Source of the DNA: an uncultured Eisenbergiella sp.
GTDB lineage: Bacteria > Bacillota > Clostridia > Lachnospirales > Lachnospiraceae
NCBI GenBank assembly: GCA_947627215.1
Contig: CANQVD010000036.1
Coordinates: 1-39,728 of the forward strand
Reading direction: 5' to 3'
Length of the DNA stretch: 39,728 nt
Shown here: positions 24,506 through 31,226 of the stretch, piece after piece
Layout: the number at the start of each line of letters is the position of its first letter
Numbering within the stretch: the stretch's first letter is position 1
Notes under the pieces: model-generated
Database searches by the model: none
What the model saw: only the letters and a program-made list of their open reading frames with translations
Told to the model about the DNA's origin: nothing
Translations under genes and position numbers: made by a program

Positions 24506-24534
24506 AGTATGCGCCCCGGCGCGCGTCCTGTCAA
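24506..24534 (-). promoter_or_regulatory. possible promoter of the HIT gene
   Basis: On the minus strand a perfect TTGACA (24529-24534) overlaps the atpC stop; 17 nt on is CATACT (24506-24511), 4 of 6 consensus. The GC-rich spacer (GCGCGCCGGGGCGC) can also fold as a short hairpin and might instead be part of the atp operon end. Confidence 0.35.
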
Positions 24535-24851
24535 ATGGCTTTTGCGCGCGGCGCCGGCACCGGCTTTCCGTCGGATACGCAAAAAGTCTCCACCACCGCC
24601 GTCACCACATCCCGCTCCACGGTGGCAAAGCCCCTGCCGTTTTGGCCCGCAAACACGGCTTTTCCCGACAAAAACGCACGGATTTCCCCCACATCCAGGG
24701 AAAACAGCGCTTTTGTATGTCCCTTCCGGATCCCGTAACTGCCGCCGCCCTTTCCCTTCCTGCCGTCGTGGACCGTCAGGCGGACGGAATCGCAGGAAAC
24801 GGGCGAAAGCGCGCCCTTCGGCGTAACGATCTGCAATCTGAGTCCATCCAT
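24531..24851 (-). CDS. atpC: F-type ATP synthase epsilon subunit, lacking the C-terminal helical domain
   Basis: 106 aa; usual epsilon is ~130-140. Only the N-terminal beta-sandwich is present (LRLQIVTPKGALSPVSCDSVRLTV ... GHTKALFSLDVGEIRA). The two C-terminal helices, which block rotation in many bacteria, are missing. The ATG at 24851 has AGAGGAGG six nt upstream; the longer frame to 24953 only adds a low-complexity basic N-terminus. It is the last gene of the atp operon, 98 nt behind beta. It links gamma to the c-ring; without the helical domain the usual epsilon inhibition should be absent (inference). Confidence 0.85.
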   Translation of the reverse strand: MDGLRLQIVTPKGALSPVSCDSVRLTVHDGRKGKGGGSYGIRKGHTKALFSLDVGEIRAFLSGKAVFAGQNGRGFATVERDVVTAVVETFCVSDGKPVPAPRAKAI

Positions 24852-24949
24852 GAAAAGCCTCCTCTCTCCGTCTCCTGCGCGCCGGCGCCGCGGTCCTGTT
24901 TCCGGTTCCGCCGCGCCGCAGGCCTGCGGCAAAATCTTTTCCCCATCCC

Positions 24950-26365
<1,416 letters not shown>

Positions 26366-26411: not shown

Positions 26412-27257
26412 TCATGCCTGTCCCTGCTGGGACGCCTCGCCGGCGGACGTCTCGATCACGTCCGCCGTAACCGCGCTCTGCCGCTTCCGGTTGATCTCCC
26501 CTTCCAGCCGCTCGCAGAACTCCGTGGCGGCATCATAGGCCGACCGCATCGTCATCAGCGTAGCGGCCTGGGCGCCCAGCGCCGCCTCCAGCACCAGCTC
26601 ATAAAACATCGCCCCGAACACCATGTCCGCCGTTTCCCCGATCATCGCCCGCCGGTCCGGTACGAACAGCGCCGACCGGTCCTCATCCCGGTCCTTTTCC
26701 GCCCTCGCGGGAGGAAACAGCTCACAGACGGCGGGCGTCTGTTCCAGCATATTGACATATGCCGGATAGACCACATAAACGCCGGAGGCCCTTCCGTCTC
26801 TGCGCAGCGCAAGAAGCGACTCCAGCAGCGCGCCGCTCTCCTCAAAGGCCGGCACGTCCGCCAGCACCCATTCCCCCGCCAGCGGAACGTCTCTTCCCTT
26901 AAAATACCGGATCGCCTTTTTTCCGCAGGCCACCAGCAGAAAACGGTCCCGGCCGCCGAGCGTCTCCTCCGCGAATTTCAAAAGCTCCGCGTTGAAGCTC
27001 CCGCAAAGGCCCTTATTGGAGGATATCACGAGAAAAACCGGGGGCGCGGACGGATCCGGCGCGCGGACCGCATCCAGAAAGCTGTCCTGATACGCGTCGA
27101 AACAGGCTCTGCACTGCCTCCCGTACTCGGCGTACTGCCCGAACATCGCATTCAGTTTTGAAAATTTGGCGGCAGAAACCGTCCGCATGGCTCTGGTGAG
27201 CTTCTGCGTAGAACGGATGCCGCGCAGCTCTTTTTTTAAACTCTGAATGGAAGGCAT
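26412..27257 (-). CDS. atpG: F-type ATP synthase gamma subunit
   Basis: 281-aa central-stalk subunit. The N-terminal helix (SLKKELRGIRSTQKLTRAMRTVSAAKF) and C-terminal helix (AATLMTMRSAYDAATEFCERLEGEINRKRQ) that make the rotating coiled coil are well conserved, as is SSNKGLCGSFN. It starts 2 nt after the stop of the b-delta-alpha gene and is followed by beta. A short tandem duplication of AGTCCCGTCGG lies in the 73-nt gap before beta. Confidence 0.95.
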   Translation of the reverse strand: MPSIQSLKKELRGIRSTQKLTRAMRTVSAAKFSKLNAMFGQYAEYGRQCRACFDAYQDSFLDAVRAPDPSAPPVFLVISSNKGLCGSFNAELLKFAEETLGGRDRFLLVACGKKAIRYFKGRDVPLAGEWVLADVPAFEESGALLESLLALRRDGRASGVYVVYPAYVNMLEQTPAVCELFPPARAEKDRDEDRSALFVPDRRAMIGETADMVFGAMFYELVLEAALGAQAATLMTMRSAYDAATEFCERLEGEINRKRQSAVTADVIETSAGEASQQGQA

Positions 27258-27259
27258 GC

Positions 27260-29491
27260 TCAGGACCTCTTCTGATATGCGCCGAGCGCCGACCGGATCT
27301 GCTCCAGCAGAGCCGCGTCAGCCTTTTCCCCGGTCTTCAGCGCCTCCACAAGGGAAGCGTGCTTTTCTTCAAAAAACAGGAACAGCCCTTTTTCGACCCC
27401 GCTCATTTCCTCCAGCGGGACCTCCTGCGCGAAACCCTCCGAGACCGCGAACAGCAAAAGTCCCTGCTGCCAGTCCTCCAGCGGCTGGAACCTGCCCTGC
27501 TTCAGCGCCTCCATCAGATGCGCGCCCGCGTCCAGCGTCCGCCGGGTGACCTCGTCGATATCCGCGCCCAGTTGGGTGAAATCCGCCAGCTCCCGGTACT
27601 GGGCGAGCCCGGTGCGCAAACTGGCCGACATCTGCTTCATCAGCTTCGTCTGAGCGGCGCCGCCCACACGGGAAACGGAAAGGCCCACATTGATGGCGGG
27701 CCGCTGCCCTTCCCGGAACAGCTCGCTTTCCAGAAAGATCTGGCCGTCCGTGATGGAGATCACATTGGTCGGAATATAGGCCGATATATCCCCGGCCAGC
27801 GTTTCGATGATGGGCAGGGCCGTGATGGAGCCGCCGCCCAGCTCGGCGGAGAGCTGTGCCGAACGCTCCAGCAGCCTGGAGTGCAGATAGAAAATATCCC
27901 CCGGATAAGCCTCCCGGCCCGAAGGGCGGTGCAGCAGCAGGGAAAGCTCCCGGTACGCCACCGCATGCTTGGAAAGATCGTCGTAGATGATGAGCACATC
28001 CTTTCCGGCATACATGAAATATTCCGCCATGGCCGTGCCGGAGAAGGGCGCGATATACTGGGTCGCGGCGGAGCCGGAAGCGTTGGCCGCCACGATCGTG
28101 GTGTATTCCATGGCCCCGTACTGCGTCAGCCGGTCCTTGATCTCGGCGATGGTGGTATCCTTCTGCCCGATAGCCACATAAATACACACCGTGTCCTTGC
28201 CCTTCTGGTTGATGATCGCATCCAGGGCCAGAGCCGTCTTGCCGGTCTGCCGGTCGCCGATGATCAGCTCCCTCTGACCTCTGCCGATGGGAACCAGCGC
28301 GTCGATCGCCTTCACGCCGGTGTGCAGCGGCCTGCTGACGGAAGCCCGGTCCAGAATGCCCGGGGCTCTGCACTCGATGGGCCGCTTCGCTTCCGCATAG
28401 ATATAGCCTTCCCCGTCTATGGGGTTGCCGATGGCGTCCACCACCCGGCCCAGAAGCGCCTTCCCAACAGGAACCGAAGCGATCCTGCCCACACGGCGGA
28501 CCCGGCTGCCGCTCTCGATGTTCGCATATTCCCCGAACACGACGCAGCCGATCCGTTCCGGCTGGATGTCCAGGATCATGCCCCGCTCGCCGCAGTCGAA
28601 CTCCACGACCTCTCCGTACATGATGTCCGCCAGGCCGTCCATCCAGCAGATGCCGTCCGAGATCTGCAGGACCCTGCCCAACTGGTAAATATGGATCTTC
28701 GGCGCAAAGGACTCCGCCTTCTGTTCGAACTCCTCCAGGACCTCCCGGACAGGCTCATCCGTGGTGATGGGCTCCCGGCTGATGCCCTTTTCATAATGGT
28801 ACAGTTCCTCCGCCACAGTATAATCATATACGGTGTCGCCGATGCGCAGCCGAAGGCCGCCGATGAGCCCGGGATCCTCCCGCACCCACAGGGACGTCTT
28901 GCCGTTCACTTCCTGCAGGAGCCTTGTGGTAGCCTCGTCCACCTTTTTTACAAGAGCGGGATCCAGCGGATAGGCGGAGGTCAGCGTCACATAGAGCACA
29001 TCATGATATTTCAGATACGCCATATCCCCCGGCGTCAGCTTGATCTGACCCAGAATCTCGTCGATCTGTCCGGCCTCCTTTTCCCGCATCCTGCCAAGAT
29101 AGGGCTCTCTGGAAAAGAGATCCGCCACCTTTTCCTGCATGATCTGAAAAAAGCGGCGCTTCGTCTTGCCGATCATGATCCGGTAGATTTCCCGGCATTC
29201 ACGCTCCCCGAATGCCTCGATCTGGGAAATCCGCCCCTCCGCCTGTATTTTTTCCTGTTCCAGCGCGCTGCTGATCTGCGGATCCTCTCCCTTTTGGACC
29301 TGTCCGTCCGACACAGGCTCCGGCCCGGGCCCCGCGGGCGGAAGGCTTTTTTCGATCCGCTCCGCCTCGTCCAGCTCCGCCAGGATCCGCCTGCGGCGGT
29401 CGGAAAACAGACGGAGGACGAACTTCCGGCAGCACACGAACAGGATTCCCGCGAGTATGAGAAAATTAGCGATCACATATAAAATCTTCAT
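27260..29491 (-). CDS. atpA: F-type ATP synthase b-delta-alpha fusion subunit
   Basis: 743 aa, against ~500 for a normal alpha. Residues ~4-27 are a membrane helix followed by a charged stretch (FSDRRRRILAELDEAERI), as in subunit b. Residues ~165-235 match the C-terminal part of delta/OSCP (VTLTSAYPLDPALVKKVDE; DPGLIGGLRLRIGDTVYD). From ~245 on it is a complete alpha: GRVLQISDGI, Walker A GDRQTGKT (412-419), and the arginine-finger region SVSRVGGAAQ (Arg608). No separate delta gene exists in the operon, while a separate b gene lies 3 nt upstream. I saw no good internal start for free alpha. Mycobacteria are known to have b-delta fusions; the addition of alpha raises a stoichiometry problem (three alpha, one delta). 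Confidence 0.88.
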   Translation of the reverse strand: MKILYVIANFLILAGILFVCCRKFVLRLFSDRRRRILAELDEAERIEKSLPPAGPGPEPVSDGQVQKGEDPQISSALEQEKIQAEGRISQIEAFGERECREIYRIMIGKTKRRFFQIMQEKVADLFSREPYLGRMREKEAGQIDEILGQIKLTPGDMAYLKYHDVLYVTLTSAYPLDPALVKKVDEATTRLLQEVNGKTSLWVREDPGLIGGLRLRIGDTVYDYTVAEELYHYEKGISREPITTDEPVREVLEEFEQKAESFAPKIHIYQLGRVLQISDGICWMDGLADIMYGEVVEFDCGERGMILDIQPERIGCVVFGEYANIESGSRVRRVGRIASVPVGKALLGRVVDAIGNPIDGEGYIYAEAKRPIECRAPGILDRASVSRPLHTGVKAIDALVPIGRGQRELIIGDRQTGKTALALDAIINQKGKDTVCIYVAIGQKDTTIAEIKDRLTQYGAMEYTTIVAANASGSAATQYIAPFSGTAMAEYFMYAGKDVLIIYDDLSKHAVAYRELSLLLHRPSGREAYPGDIFYLHSRLLERSAQLSAELGGGSITALPIIETLAGDISAYIPTNVISITDGQIFLESELFREGQRPAINVGLSVSRVGGAAQTKLMKQMSASLRTGLAQYRELADFTQLGADIDEVTRRTLDAGAHLMEALKQGRFQPLEDWQQGLLLFAVSEGFAQEVPLEEMSGVEKGLFLFFEEKHASLVEALKTGEKADAALLEQIRSALGAYQKRS

Positions 29492-29494
29492 GCC

Positions 29495-29914
29495 TTAAAC
29501 CCTTACCAGACTTTCCGCGAAAGACGCAGCCAGACCATCCGCGTGTTCGCTCAGCAGGGAAAGAAGCTCGTCGCACTCCTCCTCTGCCTTCACACGATAG
29601 CCGTCCACCCGGTTCAGCCGTTCCTCATTGGCCTGCTCCATCCGCCGCCGTCCGTCCGCCCGGATCTTCTCGATCTCCGCCTTCATCTGCCTCTGCTGCT
29701 GCGCCAGCAGGGCGGCCTTTTTCTCTTCCAGCATGGACGCGTACGCCGCCTCCCGCTTTTCCTGCTCCGCTTTTCTGGCCGCGGCGTTTTGCACGCGCTC
29801 CCTGCGCGCATCCAGCAGGGCGAGCACAGGCCGAAACAGCAGAAAATGCAGGATCAGCATCAGCAGAAGGAAGCACAGAACGGTCCATATCACAACCGAT
29901 ATCTGAATCGTCAT
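29495..29914 (-). CDS. atpF: F-type ATP synthase subunit b
   Basis: 139 aa. One N-terminal membrane helix (~5-27, VVIWTVLCFLLLMLILHFLLF) then RPVLALLDARRERV and a long charged helix rich in Ala, Glu, Lys and Arg, as expected for the peripheral stalk. It is 13 nt behind the c subunit and 3 nt before the fusion subunit, whose own N-terminus is also b-like, so the stalk may be a b/b' heterodimer as in photosynthetic and mycobacterial enzymes. Confidence 0.9.
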   Translation of the reverse strand: MTIQISVVIWTVLCFLLLMLILHFLLFRPVLALLDARRERVQNAAARKAEQEKREAAYASMLEEKKAALLAQQQRQMKAEIEKIRADGRRRMEQANEERLNRVDGYRVKAEEECDELLSLLSEHADGLAASFAESLVRV

Positions 29915-29927
29915 GACTTCTCTCCCG

Positions 29928-30155
29928 TCAAATCTTTGCCACCAGCATGAAAGCGATCAGAAGCCCGTAGATCGTCAGGGCCTCCATCAGCGCCAGCGAA
30001 ATGATCAGCGTGGAACGGATGTCCTTGGCGGCATCCGGCTGGCGTGCGATGCTTTCCATGGCGCTTTTTGCCGTCAGCCCCTGCCCGATGGCGGGTCCCA
30101 GCGTGCTGACCGAGATGGCGATTGCCGCTGCGAGTGCGATGATTTCTGTTTTCAT
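29928..30155 (-). CDS. atpE: F-type ATP synthase subunit c
   Basis: 75-aa hairpin of two membrane helices joined by the polar loop ARQPDA. The ion-binding Glu is in [16 protein letters not shown] is kept in helix 1, but the Ser/Thr that follows the Glu in Na+-binding rings (EST) is Ala-Leu here, and the stretch closely matches the proton-type chloroplast/cyanobacterial c. H+ coupling is therefore more likely than Na+. The ATG at 30155 has AAGGAGGAG upstream; the longer frame runs through the intergenic spacer. Confidence 0.93.
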
Positions 30156-30234
30156 GATTCTCCTCCTTATTTTCTTTTCCCGGATTTTCCGATTTTTTCT
30201 TCCATAGCCCGTATTGCCGATGCAGCGCTCCGGC

Positions 30235-30909
30235 TCATTCCGCTTCCGTTTCCTCATCCAGATAGATCGAAACGAGCATGGTGAACACCATGGCCTGCAG
30301 CGCGCAGAACAAAAGCGACAGCGCCATCATCACGACGGGCACCCCGATGGGGAAAATACTGTAAAGCTCCTCCGTCACCATTTCCTCCCCGAAAACATTT
30401 CCGAAAAGACGCAGCGCCAGAGAAGCGGGCTTGATGAACTCGTCCAGCAAAAGCAGCGGCAGCATGAAAAACATGGGGCTCACAAAGCGTTTGAAATAAT
30501 GCTTCACGCCGGCCCGCAGTCCCGCGATCTGCAGAAACACAAAGGACACGATCCCCAGCCCTGCCGTCACCGAGAGGGACGATGTCGGCGCCTTCACATA
30601 ATCCGTCTGTCCCACTCCGGGAAACAGTCCCGAATAGTTGGCGAAGATGATGAAAATGAACAGCGCCGCCAGAAATGAAAAATACCGGCGGGATTTTTCC
30701 CGGCCCAGGAGATCCCCGAAGAAATTGTCCAGGTATTCCACCCCGGTTTCGATCACATTCTGAAAAATGCCCGGCCGTTCCTTCAGATTGTGCCGGACGA
30801 TCAGGGAAATGACCGTTATGACCGCCAGAATGATCCACATCATGACCACCTCCCCCGTCACGTCCAGTATCCCGAACAGGGGAAAGATCACCTTTGACTC
30901 CTCACCCAT
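30235..30909 (-). CDS. atpB: F-type ATP synthase subunit a
   Basis: 224-aa Fo stator subunit with several membrane helices. The essential Arg is Arg167 in [17 protein letters not shown]; the helix before it contains [10 protein letters not shown], and [13 protein letters not shown] matches the conserved APT-T region. It forms the ion half-channels facing the c-ring. Its ATG overlaps the atpI stop by one base (TGATG), showing translational coupling. An 80-nt spacer with a strong ribosome site separates it from c. Confidence 0.94.
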
Positions 30910-31226
30910 CAGCCAAGATCCTCCTTTCGATGCAGCGAATCGTTGAGCTTTACCAGCCGATACGTGAACCAGAGCATCGGCAGCGTGAGCCCCAGACAGC
31001 CTCCGGCCAGAAGCCAGATCCGATCCCAGGGCGTACGGCCGCCGAGCAGATACAGCAGCACCAGGAAGGCGATCTGCACCGGCTGCTTCACCATCTGGAC
31101 CATCAGATATTTCGATTCGTGTTTTTTGAGGACATACCGCGAAACCGCATAACCGACCGAAGCGACGGCCGCGCCCGCGAGGAATGCAAGAAATGCGCCT
31201 GAAAAATTGTTTCCGATTGCAATCAC
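30909..31226 (-). CDS. atpI: ATP synthase I-like small membrane protein
   Basis: About 105 aa with four hydrophobic segments, placed as the first gene of the atp operon, where AtpI (c-ring assembly / Mg2+ related) normally sits. Sequence identity to AtpI is not strong by eye, so the call rests mainly on size, topology and position; an AtpR-like role is an alternative. The start is uncertain: the frame begins at GTG 31226, but GAAGGTGAT around it looks like the ribosome site itself, so a start at a non-ATG codon a few bases later (ATT/ATC) is possible. Confidence 0.65.
   Translation of the reverse strand: MIAIGNNFSGAFLAFLAGAAVASVGYAVSRYVLKKHESKYLMVQMVKQPVQIAFLVLLYLLGGRTPWDRIWLLAGGCLGLTLPMLWFTYRLVKLNDSLHRKEDLG

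Follow-up and report, generated by a model that had tools for sequence, protein, structure and literature searches.

How can one gene provide the b, delta and alpha parts of an ATP synthase, when F1 needs three alphas and the usual enzyme has one stalk? The question arises at a stretch of 39,728 nucleotides from an uncultured Eisenbergiella sp. (GenBank assembly GCA_947627215.1, contig CANQVD010000036.1; hereafter the window), whose minus strand carries an open reading frame (ORF) that joins a b-like stalk (b'), the C-terminal domain (CTD) of delta and a full alpha subunit. A first-pass annotation, made from the letters of the window, had offered three ways out of the stoichiometric puzzle—the chain is cut, free alpha arises from an internal start, or the enzyme has up to three stalks—and these prove to be the right set. 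The evidence favors the last, since the N-terminal domain of delta is absent, the linker to alpha is near-fixed in length, and the engineered enzyme 9JC1 carries up to three stalks. Judging from sequence and analogy, we assign a probability of about 0.58 to the reading that the product would stay in one piece, as a subunit of a natural enzyme held by two or three stalks.

The b', delta and alpha parts of one frame

The frame opens with ATG and runs through 743 residues without interruption. The whole gene and its parts, in order along the chain, are as follows.

27260..29491, minus strand: b'-delta(CTD)-alpha fusion gene, 743 aa (ORF, Pfam, NCBIfam, conservation, model)
29348..29488, minus strand: b'-type membrane helix and membrane-proximal helix, residues 2–48 (Pfam, model helices, invariant residues)
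29282..29347, minus strand: flexible Pro/Glu-rich hinge of varying length among relatives, residues 49–70 (alignment, model confidence)
29042..29281, minus strand: b'-type stalk helices, residues 71–150 (model helices, fixed segment length)
28778..29041, minus strand: delta/OSCP C-terminal domain, N-terminal domain absent, residues 151–238 (PF00213, lengths, fold, 9jc1 match)
28754..28777, minus strand: short linker from delta(CTD) to the alpha N-terminal helix, residues 239–246 (model, span lengths)
27263..28753, minus strand: complete alpha subunit with GDRQTGKT and SVSRVGG (TIGR00962, R608)

The NCBIfam atpA model TIGR00962 matches residues 249–742 at 704.8 bits (cut-off 484.45), the Pfam alpha domains lie from residue 272 onward, and R608 is invariant across 65 aligned rows of relatives; we take GDRQTGKT to be the P-loop and SVSRVGG the arginine-finger region of the fused alpha. 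The OSCP model PF00213 matches residues 161–234 at 39.2 bits (cut-off 22.3), over profile positions 98–169 of 172: the delta part consists of just the C-terminal domain, with no N-terminal one. A chance OSCP match was considered and ruled out by the above-cut-off score, the conservation and the predicted delta(CTD) fold.

At the N-terminus, the Pfam model ATP-synt_B matches residues 3–49 at 25.4 bits, below its 28-bit cut-off, and N9 and K23 of this membrane-helix part are invariant in the same 65 rows. The b-like membrane helix of the first-pass annotation is present, but to call it a helix only was too narrow. Aligned as a profile, the b' part matches separate b subunits across residues 2–122 (hhalign 97.8), and in the relatives G762 and G763 the Pfam b match covers profile positions 2–122 and 2–123 of 132 within the fused frame; by these comparisons the b part is a full b-type stalk. 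The intervening hinge (segment 47–74) ranges from 18 to 74 aa across relatives, with 13% proline and 19% glutamate. In L095:1841-4207 this hinge exceeds that of the window by 46 residues and consists of Gly/Ser/Glu/Pro-rich near-repeats.

The architecture recurs in relatives. A genome-collection scan with the whole protein gave 215 pattern matches, of which 198 encode a relative, and the best 80 of these 198 were kept; L090 and L095 are apparently one locus, and the 81 aligned rows are 80 distinct ones. The fused frame is uninterrupted and longer than 700 aa in 77 of the 80 loci, and the remaining three (L157, L171 and L173) end at contig ends. ORF analysis, Pfam and TIGR00962 together bear out the single frame that the first-pass annotation had claimed, and the domain search of the protein and its homologues that it had called for confirmed the fusion in relatives. 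Best-segment identity to the window protein is 55–89% in this best 80 of 198, and 54–93% over the 65-row alignment. Segment lengths are nearly invariant: the stalk segment 76–150 measures 75 aa in 81/81 rows, the delta(CTD) segment 151–234 measures 84 aa in 80/81, the span 235–272 measures 38 aa in 77/81, and the distance from VYD to SDGICW is 54 aa in 71 of 73 scored rows. We regard the fusion as such as practically certain.

An AlphaFold2 model built from the 65-row alignment (65 of 78 rows; L157, L171 and L173 absent) has a mean predicted local distance difference test score (pLDDT) of 76.9 and a predicted template-modeling score (pTM) of 0.71. It places helices at residues 2–20, 22–48, 71–126, 131–137 and 139–147, with disorder (pLDDT <50) at residues 52–70; the delta(CTD) fold occupies 154–238 and is followed by an eight-residue link, the alpha N-terminal helix at 247–260 and the alpha barrel from 267.

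Likeness to an engineered multi-stalk enzyme

A Foldseek comparison of the model with the PDB returned chains I, J and K of 9jc1 as first, second and third matches; by sequence score alone, the alpha of a hybrid F1 (9nvl) ranks above 9jc1. According to Ueno et al. 2025 (PMC12229609), 9JC1 is Bacillus PS3 FoF1 engineered by removing the delta N-terminal domain and joining delta(CTD) to alpha, in an epsilon(deltaC) background; the entry holds three fused chains. The engineered fusion gave its own band above the alpha position and no alpha band. The stoichiometry of a rose 2.2-fold and that of b 1.8-fold, H+/ATP was 5.8 versus 3.0, and up to three stalks and a-subunits were carried, with stalks able to bind all three alphas. 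The authors attribute the usual limit of one stalk to the delta N-terminal domain, and call for a version with stably bound stalks (PMC12229609).

The window resembles this construct in having delta(CTD) on the alpha N-terminus, in a near-equal linker—the two junctions align by sequence and the linker differs by one residue—and in the absence of the delta N-terminal and epsilon C-terminal domains. At the gene level it shows two marks of a delta(deltaN)-alpha fusion, delta(CTD) joined to the alpha N-terminus and no delta N-terminal domain. The PS3 enzyme, in contrast, is man-made, and its b2 is non-covalent and lost on the grids (1.26 stalks per particle), whereas the b' of the window is covalent in a chain that has evolved and is spread over many genomes.

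On the reading we prefer, the gene product would be the uncut b'-delta(CTD)-alpha subunit of a second, probably H+-driven F1Fo ATP synthase. Because F1 needs three alphas, three copies would enter each enzyme, each contributing a delta C-terminal domain atop alpha, a b' stalk and a membrane anchor, and the separate b would pair with b'. With the delta N-terminal domain missing from the threefold axis, where it would restrict the enzyme to one stalk, the enzyme would have room for two or three stalks, and possibly for an equal number of a-subunits per c-ring; if it behaved like the engineered PS3 enzyme, it would have a higher H+/ATP and could work at low proton motive force. We infer the absence of proteolysis, the stalk number, the a-subunit number, the ion and the physiological role alike. 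A bolder form of this picture would have three covalently locked stalks, up to three a-subunits per c-ring and an H+/ATP nearing the c number: a low-gear enzyme at which evolution in gut Clostridia would have arrived several times by joining delta(CTD) to alpha, with b' joined as well in the window type, and which would solve the stalk dissociation of the engineered version. We offer it tentatively, as a possibility about which doubt outweighs confidence.

The first-pass annotation had asked whether such a fusion is already described. In part it is: the delta(CTD)-alpha kind is in print in PMC12229609, which names natural examples of the delta(deltaN)-alpha type, from Acidaminococcus fermentans and further species (UniProt G4Q3K6, A0A1I2C5T3), and describes natural multi-stalk enzymes as inferred from a few gene fusions and awaiting experimental verification. 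Like the window, Acidaminococcus fermentans has delta fused to alpha in its atp operon with the delta N-terminal domain missing; for it and the two UniProt entries, compared by description, no b' part is mentioned in the section that names them. In the open-licence literature searched, we found neither the natural tripartite b'-delta-alpha chain, with its spread and history, nor a demonstrated natural multi-stalk F-type case.

Other known systems are compared here by their descriptions in print. The mycobacterial b-delta subunit (PMC8617483) likewise has b and delta in one chain, but it is present in one copy per enzyme, beside a separate alpha, and comprises a whole delta with an extra helical domain between; a fusion of that type is ruled out, as here the delta N-terminal domain is absent and alpha is fused. 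The N-ATPase shares the lack of a separate delta gene and is usually the second F-ATPase of its genome. Its operon reads beta-epsilon-...-a-c-b-alpha-gamma, whereas that of the window reads I-a-c-b-fusion-gamma-beta-epsilon with delta(CTD) as a fusion; membership is ruled out by this gene order and by an alpha score of 585.7 bits against a TIGR03324 cut-off of 750.5. V-ATPases and V/A-ATPases, with three and two stalks, also have several peripheral stalks, but the likeness is one of working only: they form another family with other stalk subunits, and we do not place the window enzyme among them.

Alternatives to the proposed uncut multi-stalk subunit

Several observations weigh against an uncut multi-stalk subunit, and some of them feed the alternatives below. 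Cryogenic electron microscopy (cryo-EM) of the engineered enzyme found 0, 1, 2 and 3 stalks in 15, 51, 26 and 8% of particles, so that three stalks were seen in only 8%, with a mean of 1.26 (PMC12229609). A hinge as variable in length as that of b' (18–74 aa) is unexpected in a rigid stator, several stretches of the alpha nucleotide domain have pLDDT <50 in the model, and all 80 records are titled metagenome-assembled genomes (MAGs). In fusions of the other lineage, described below, the delta N-terminal domain is kept in 22 of 59, and three copies keeping it should clash. Cleavage is compatible with the sequence evidence. We scanned residues 225–300, with 225–283 as the junction proper, for in-frame ATG, GTG or TTG codons with a Shine-Dalgarno-like core. 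At least one such pair occurs in 25 of 81 window-type rows, and at least one in the scanned stretch of 31 of 59 other-lineage rows; the fusion genes' own first starts often lack a core (present in 35/80 and 19/59, respectively), which makes the test weak. Start codons are equally dense at the junction and in the alpha body (4.9% each), and cores before them are slightly commoner at the junction (31/235) than in alpha (142/1590), with 84/688 in the stalk. Finally, a source of free alpha exists in some hosts. A normal atp operon, encoding a 181-aa delta and a 500-aa alpha, accompanies the fusion operon in the window's own genome (97% complete, 108 contigs), where it sits on a separate contig. 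A full-length separate delta was found additionally in 11 of 43 host genomes, and judged by that delta a free alpha is probably present there too.

Three intact fusions might enter F1 and yet form one working stalk, through the pairing of a single delta(CTD)-b' arm with b and a, leaving two arms as idle membrane tethers. Such an arrangement, which we consider unlikely, would fit the single a and single b gene per operon, the long variable hinge in b' and the 51% of engineered particles with one stalk. Against it, delta(CTD), the membrane helix and the stalk length are conserved with no decay seen, and the stalks of the engineered enzyme can bind all three alphas.

A protease might instead separate alpha from delta(CTD), so that three free alphas result and the classical 3:1 stoichiometry is restored, one b'-delta being kept and the excess degraded. 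Both the linker, less conserved in sequence than the parts flanking it, and the retention of the delta N-terminal domain in 22 of 59 fusions elsewhere speak for cutting. Yet no residue between 232 and 269 is conserved in at least 90% of the 65 rows, so there is no fixed cleavage motif, and a linker of near-invariant length (77/81 rows) suggests a chain spanning a fixed distance, which a chain meant for cutting would not need. Among the 51 of 59 other-lineage rows that could be scored, the distance between delta motif and alpha ranges over 47–64 aa. Cutting would also waste two of every three b'-delta chains, and the engineered fusion ran as one band above alpha; we think this improbable.

Internal translation starts at the junction, as a source of free alpha, are disfavored by the lack of a common start with a core and strike us as very improbable. 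The window has no in-frame ATG, GTG or TTG with a core at residues 225–283, as the first-pass annotation had noted for the delta-alpha junction; across 225–300, the only start codon with such a core is residue 296, inside alpha. No junction position combines start and core in more than 7 of the 81 window-type rows, which speaks against the internal start that the annotation had entertained. The codon at residue 275 could serve as a start in 44 of 81 rows, but only one of these has a core, and the residue lies within the first alpha strand of the model, beyond the alpha N-terminal helix. The near-universal methionines 284 (79/81) and 291 (81/81) lie inside the alpha barrel, none with a core. 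The tally of starts with cores given above, and the many own starts that do without one, keep some weight on this side, as a missing core proves little.

A hybrid F1, with one fused chain and two free alphas from the normal operon, is scarcely credible. It could draw on the normal operon of the window's genome and on the separate deltas of the 11 genomes, and the annotation's caveat that a second, normal operon might be the expressed one is half borne out, in that such an operon is present. The normal alpha, however, is only 50% identical to the fused one. We searched for OSCP in host genomes of 43 of the 80 loci, picked by the author, at Pfam sensitivity. In 29 of them the fusion is the sole OSCP match, the delta N-terminal domain being absent there; the window's genome does encode that domain, in its normal operon. 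All 29 have a single alpha above the atpA cut-off, within the fused frame (737–793 aa), and 13 of them yield just two atpA-search matches, the fused alpha and a beta. The search for atpH or atpA elsewhere that the annotation had proposed thus found a normal operon in the window's genome and none in these 29. Although the lack of another alpha depends on MAG completeness, gaps could hardly account for it in all 29, and within that same limit a hybrid as a general answer is ruled out for them. Further OSCP matches in 586-aa frames occur in 3 of the 43 host genomes, which also carry the window-type fusion; these extra delta(CTD) frames (G736:C32, G737:C59, G737:C127 and G752:C36) have stops in the matched stretch in 3 of 4 cases.

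A sequencing or assembly error or a pseudogene at the junction, which the annotation had named as a danger and to which some normal operons of the window's genus with delta and alpha in one frame and a single stop between lend a little color, is ruled out, with negligible doubt, because 77 of 80 loci have the same open architecture, down to 55% identity.

Operon, other fusion lineages and meaning

The minus-strand operon runs I-like, a, c, b (139 aa), fusion, gamma, beta, epsilon, and ORF, Pfam and NCBIfam searches of the window operon found no separate delta or alpha gene, in keeping with the first-pass annotation's statement that the operon has no delta gene of its own.

30909..31226, minus strand: AtpI-like protein (PF03899 22.6 bits, below the 25.1 cut-off; position common to most relatives)
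30235..30909, minus strand: a subunit (PF00119 151.1 bits)
29928..30155, minus strand: c subunit, 75 aa from the conserved start (ORF 29928–30257; Pfam; motif MEALTIY)
29495..29914, minus strand: separate b subunit, 139 aa (PF00430 26.1 bits, below the 28-bit cut-off; profile comparison)
26412..27257, minus strand: gamma subunit (PF00231 163.1 bits)
24950..26350, minus strand: beta subunit (TIGR01039 768 bits, cut-off 462.85)
24531..24953, minus strand: epsilon subunit, beta-sandwich domain only (PF02823 match)

The profile of this separate b matches the separate b of other operons (hhalign 99.5). The enzyme has the marks of an F-type ATPase—alpha and beta above curated cut-offs, and a, b, c, gamma and epsilon in one operon—except a separate two-domain delta, in place of which there is only the delta C-terminal part inside the alpha frame. 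The order I-a-c-b-fusion-gamma-beta-epsilon recurs in most loci on contigs of sufficient length; the AtpI-like match is missing in L149, L161 and L164, and spacing around a, c and b is irregular or overlapping in L163, L166 and L167. L165, labeled Prevotella (Bacteroidota), has no epsilon match, and its window-type operon is followed by a normal atp operon within about 1 kb on one contig; the label may be a binning error.

In other enzymes the epsilon C-terminal helix domain inhibits ATP hydrolysis. The window epsilon gives no match to PF00401, which models that domain; all eight window-type epsilons tested match the beta-sandwich model alone (two of them below its cut-off), the median epsilon ORF is 96 aa over 72 window-type loci, and the one epsilon tested from the other lineage (L053) shows both domains. 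Lacking the helix domain, the window-type enzyme may run in both directions. At the carboxylate, window-type c-subunits read EA in 74 of 76 and ET in 2 of 76, and those of four normal operons read AETTGLY. These motifs suggest that the fusion enzyme would use H+ and the normal one Na+.

Record names among the 80 loci include Eisenbergiella, Acetatifactor, Oscillospiraceae, Christensenellaceae, Ruminococcus and unplaced Clostridia, besides one Prevotella. Within the window's genus, 2 of 13 genomes carry the window type (G000, the window's own, and G012), while the delta-alpha fusion of G006 belongs to the other type. Among the 70 matches listed for 245 genomes sampled across the class, the window's own frame is the only one of such size.

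Other fusions are widespread in the window's family, where 325 of 397 genomes have an OSCP match. We re-examined 140 genomes selected for weak or multiple matches or for belonging to the same genus, and other genomes of the family may hold more fusions. Of the 140, 66 (36/60 and 30/80) have OSCP within a frame of at least 576 aa. The locus set takes in 58 of these 66, to which G006 and G012 were added; of the loci with stops in the match, five were left out and two kept, and G000 is the window's own genome. G012 is of the window type. By length and N-terminus, the other 59 divide into 22 whole delta-alpha (669–701 aa), 36 delta(CTD)-alpha (579–642 aa) and one b-delta(CTD)-alpha. Outside the family, fusions were collected from seven more families of the class (ten fusions) and from two more of the order (five).

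Some loci are unusual. Three repeats of about 21 residues each make up the N-terminus of the 638-aa fusion L206:2026, ahead of delta(CTD), and L044 (G232) is a very divergent delta(CTD)-alpha on a long branch, with the c-subunit motif SESTAIY. Two loci (L199:2105, 227 aa; L200:2150, 250 aa) show a long b with an OSCP C-terminal match beside a separate alpha of 505 aa. G080, from another lineage and 96% complete, has a 778-aa b-delta(CTD)-alpha in place of b, delta and alpha; its only b above the Pfam cut-off sits inside this frame, and two weak b matches (E 0.004 and 0.009) lie on a contig with a 458-aa distant ATPase match, perhaps flagellar. The case rests on one assembly of its genus.

The window type is a single clade (support 100) in alpha trees, and its sister group consists of two delta(CTD)-alpha rows that lack b'; the thinned tree has 43 + 64 + 16 rows, with near-copies thinned and L090, L157, L171 and L173 left out beforehand. 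The fused and separate states require six changes, which may be either gains or losses, on a 74-row tree (bootstrap range 6–7; well-supported branches force at least 5) that holds 13 of the 43 window-type rows, 10 chosen and 22 random other fused rows, and neither L044 nor L072. Scored by protein length, the delta N-terminal domain changes state 11 times among 60 fused other-lineage rows, on a tree with bootstrap values still unsettled; that tree omits the window type, L073, L074, L006, L007 and the long-branch L044 and L072. These 11 changes would most simply be repeated losses, as expected if a delta linked to all alphas made the domain useless or damaging; the 22 domain-keeping fusions speak against so simple a picture.

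The number of stalks and a-subunits can set the ions that an ATP synthase spends per ATP, and the answer here bears on the life of fermenting gut bacteria at low proton motive force. The window type is the only F-ATPase found in 29 of the 43 genomes searched. A tripartite fusion with a covalently held stalk, conserved in gut Clostridia, makes the question of natural multi-stalk enzymes directly testable, and its covalent b' possibly offers a stable natural enzyme for their study. The fusion, present in many gut bacteria, suggests a motor with up to three stalks, not the usual one.

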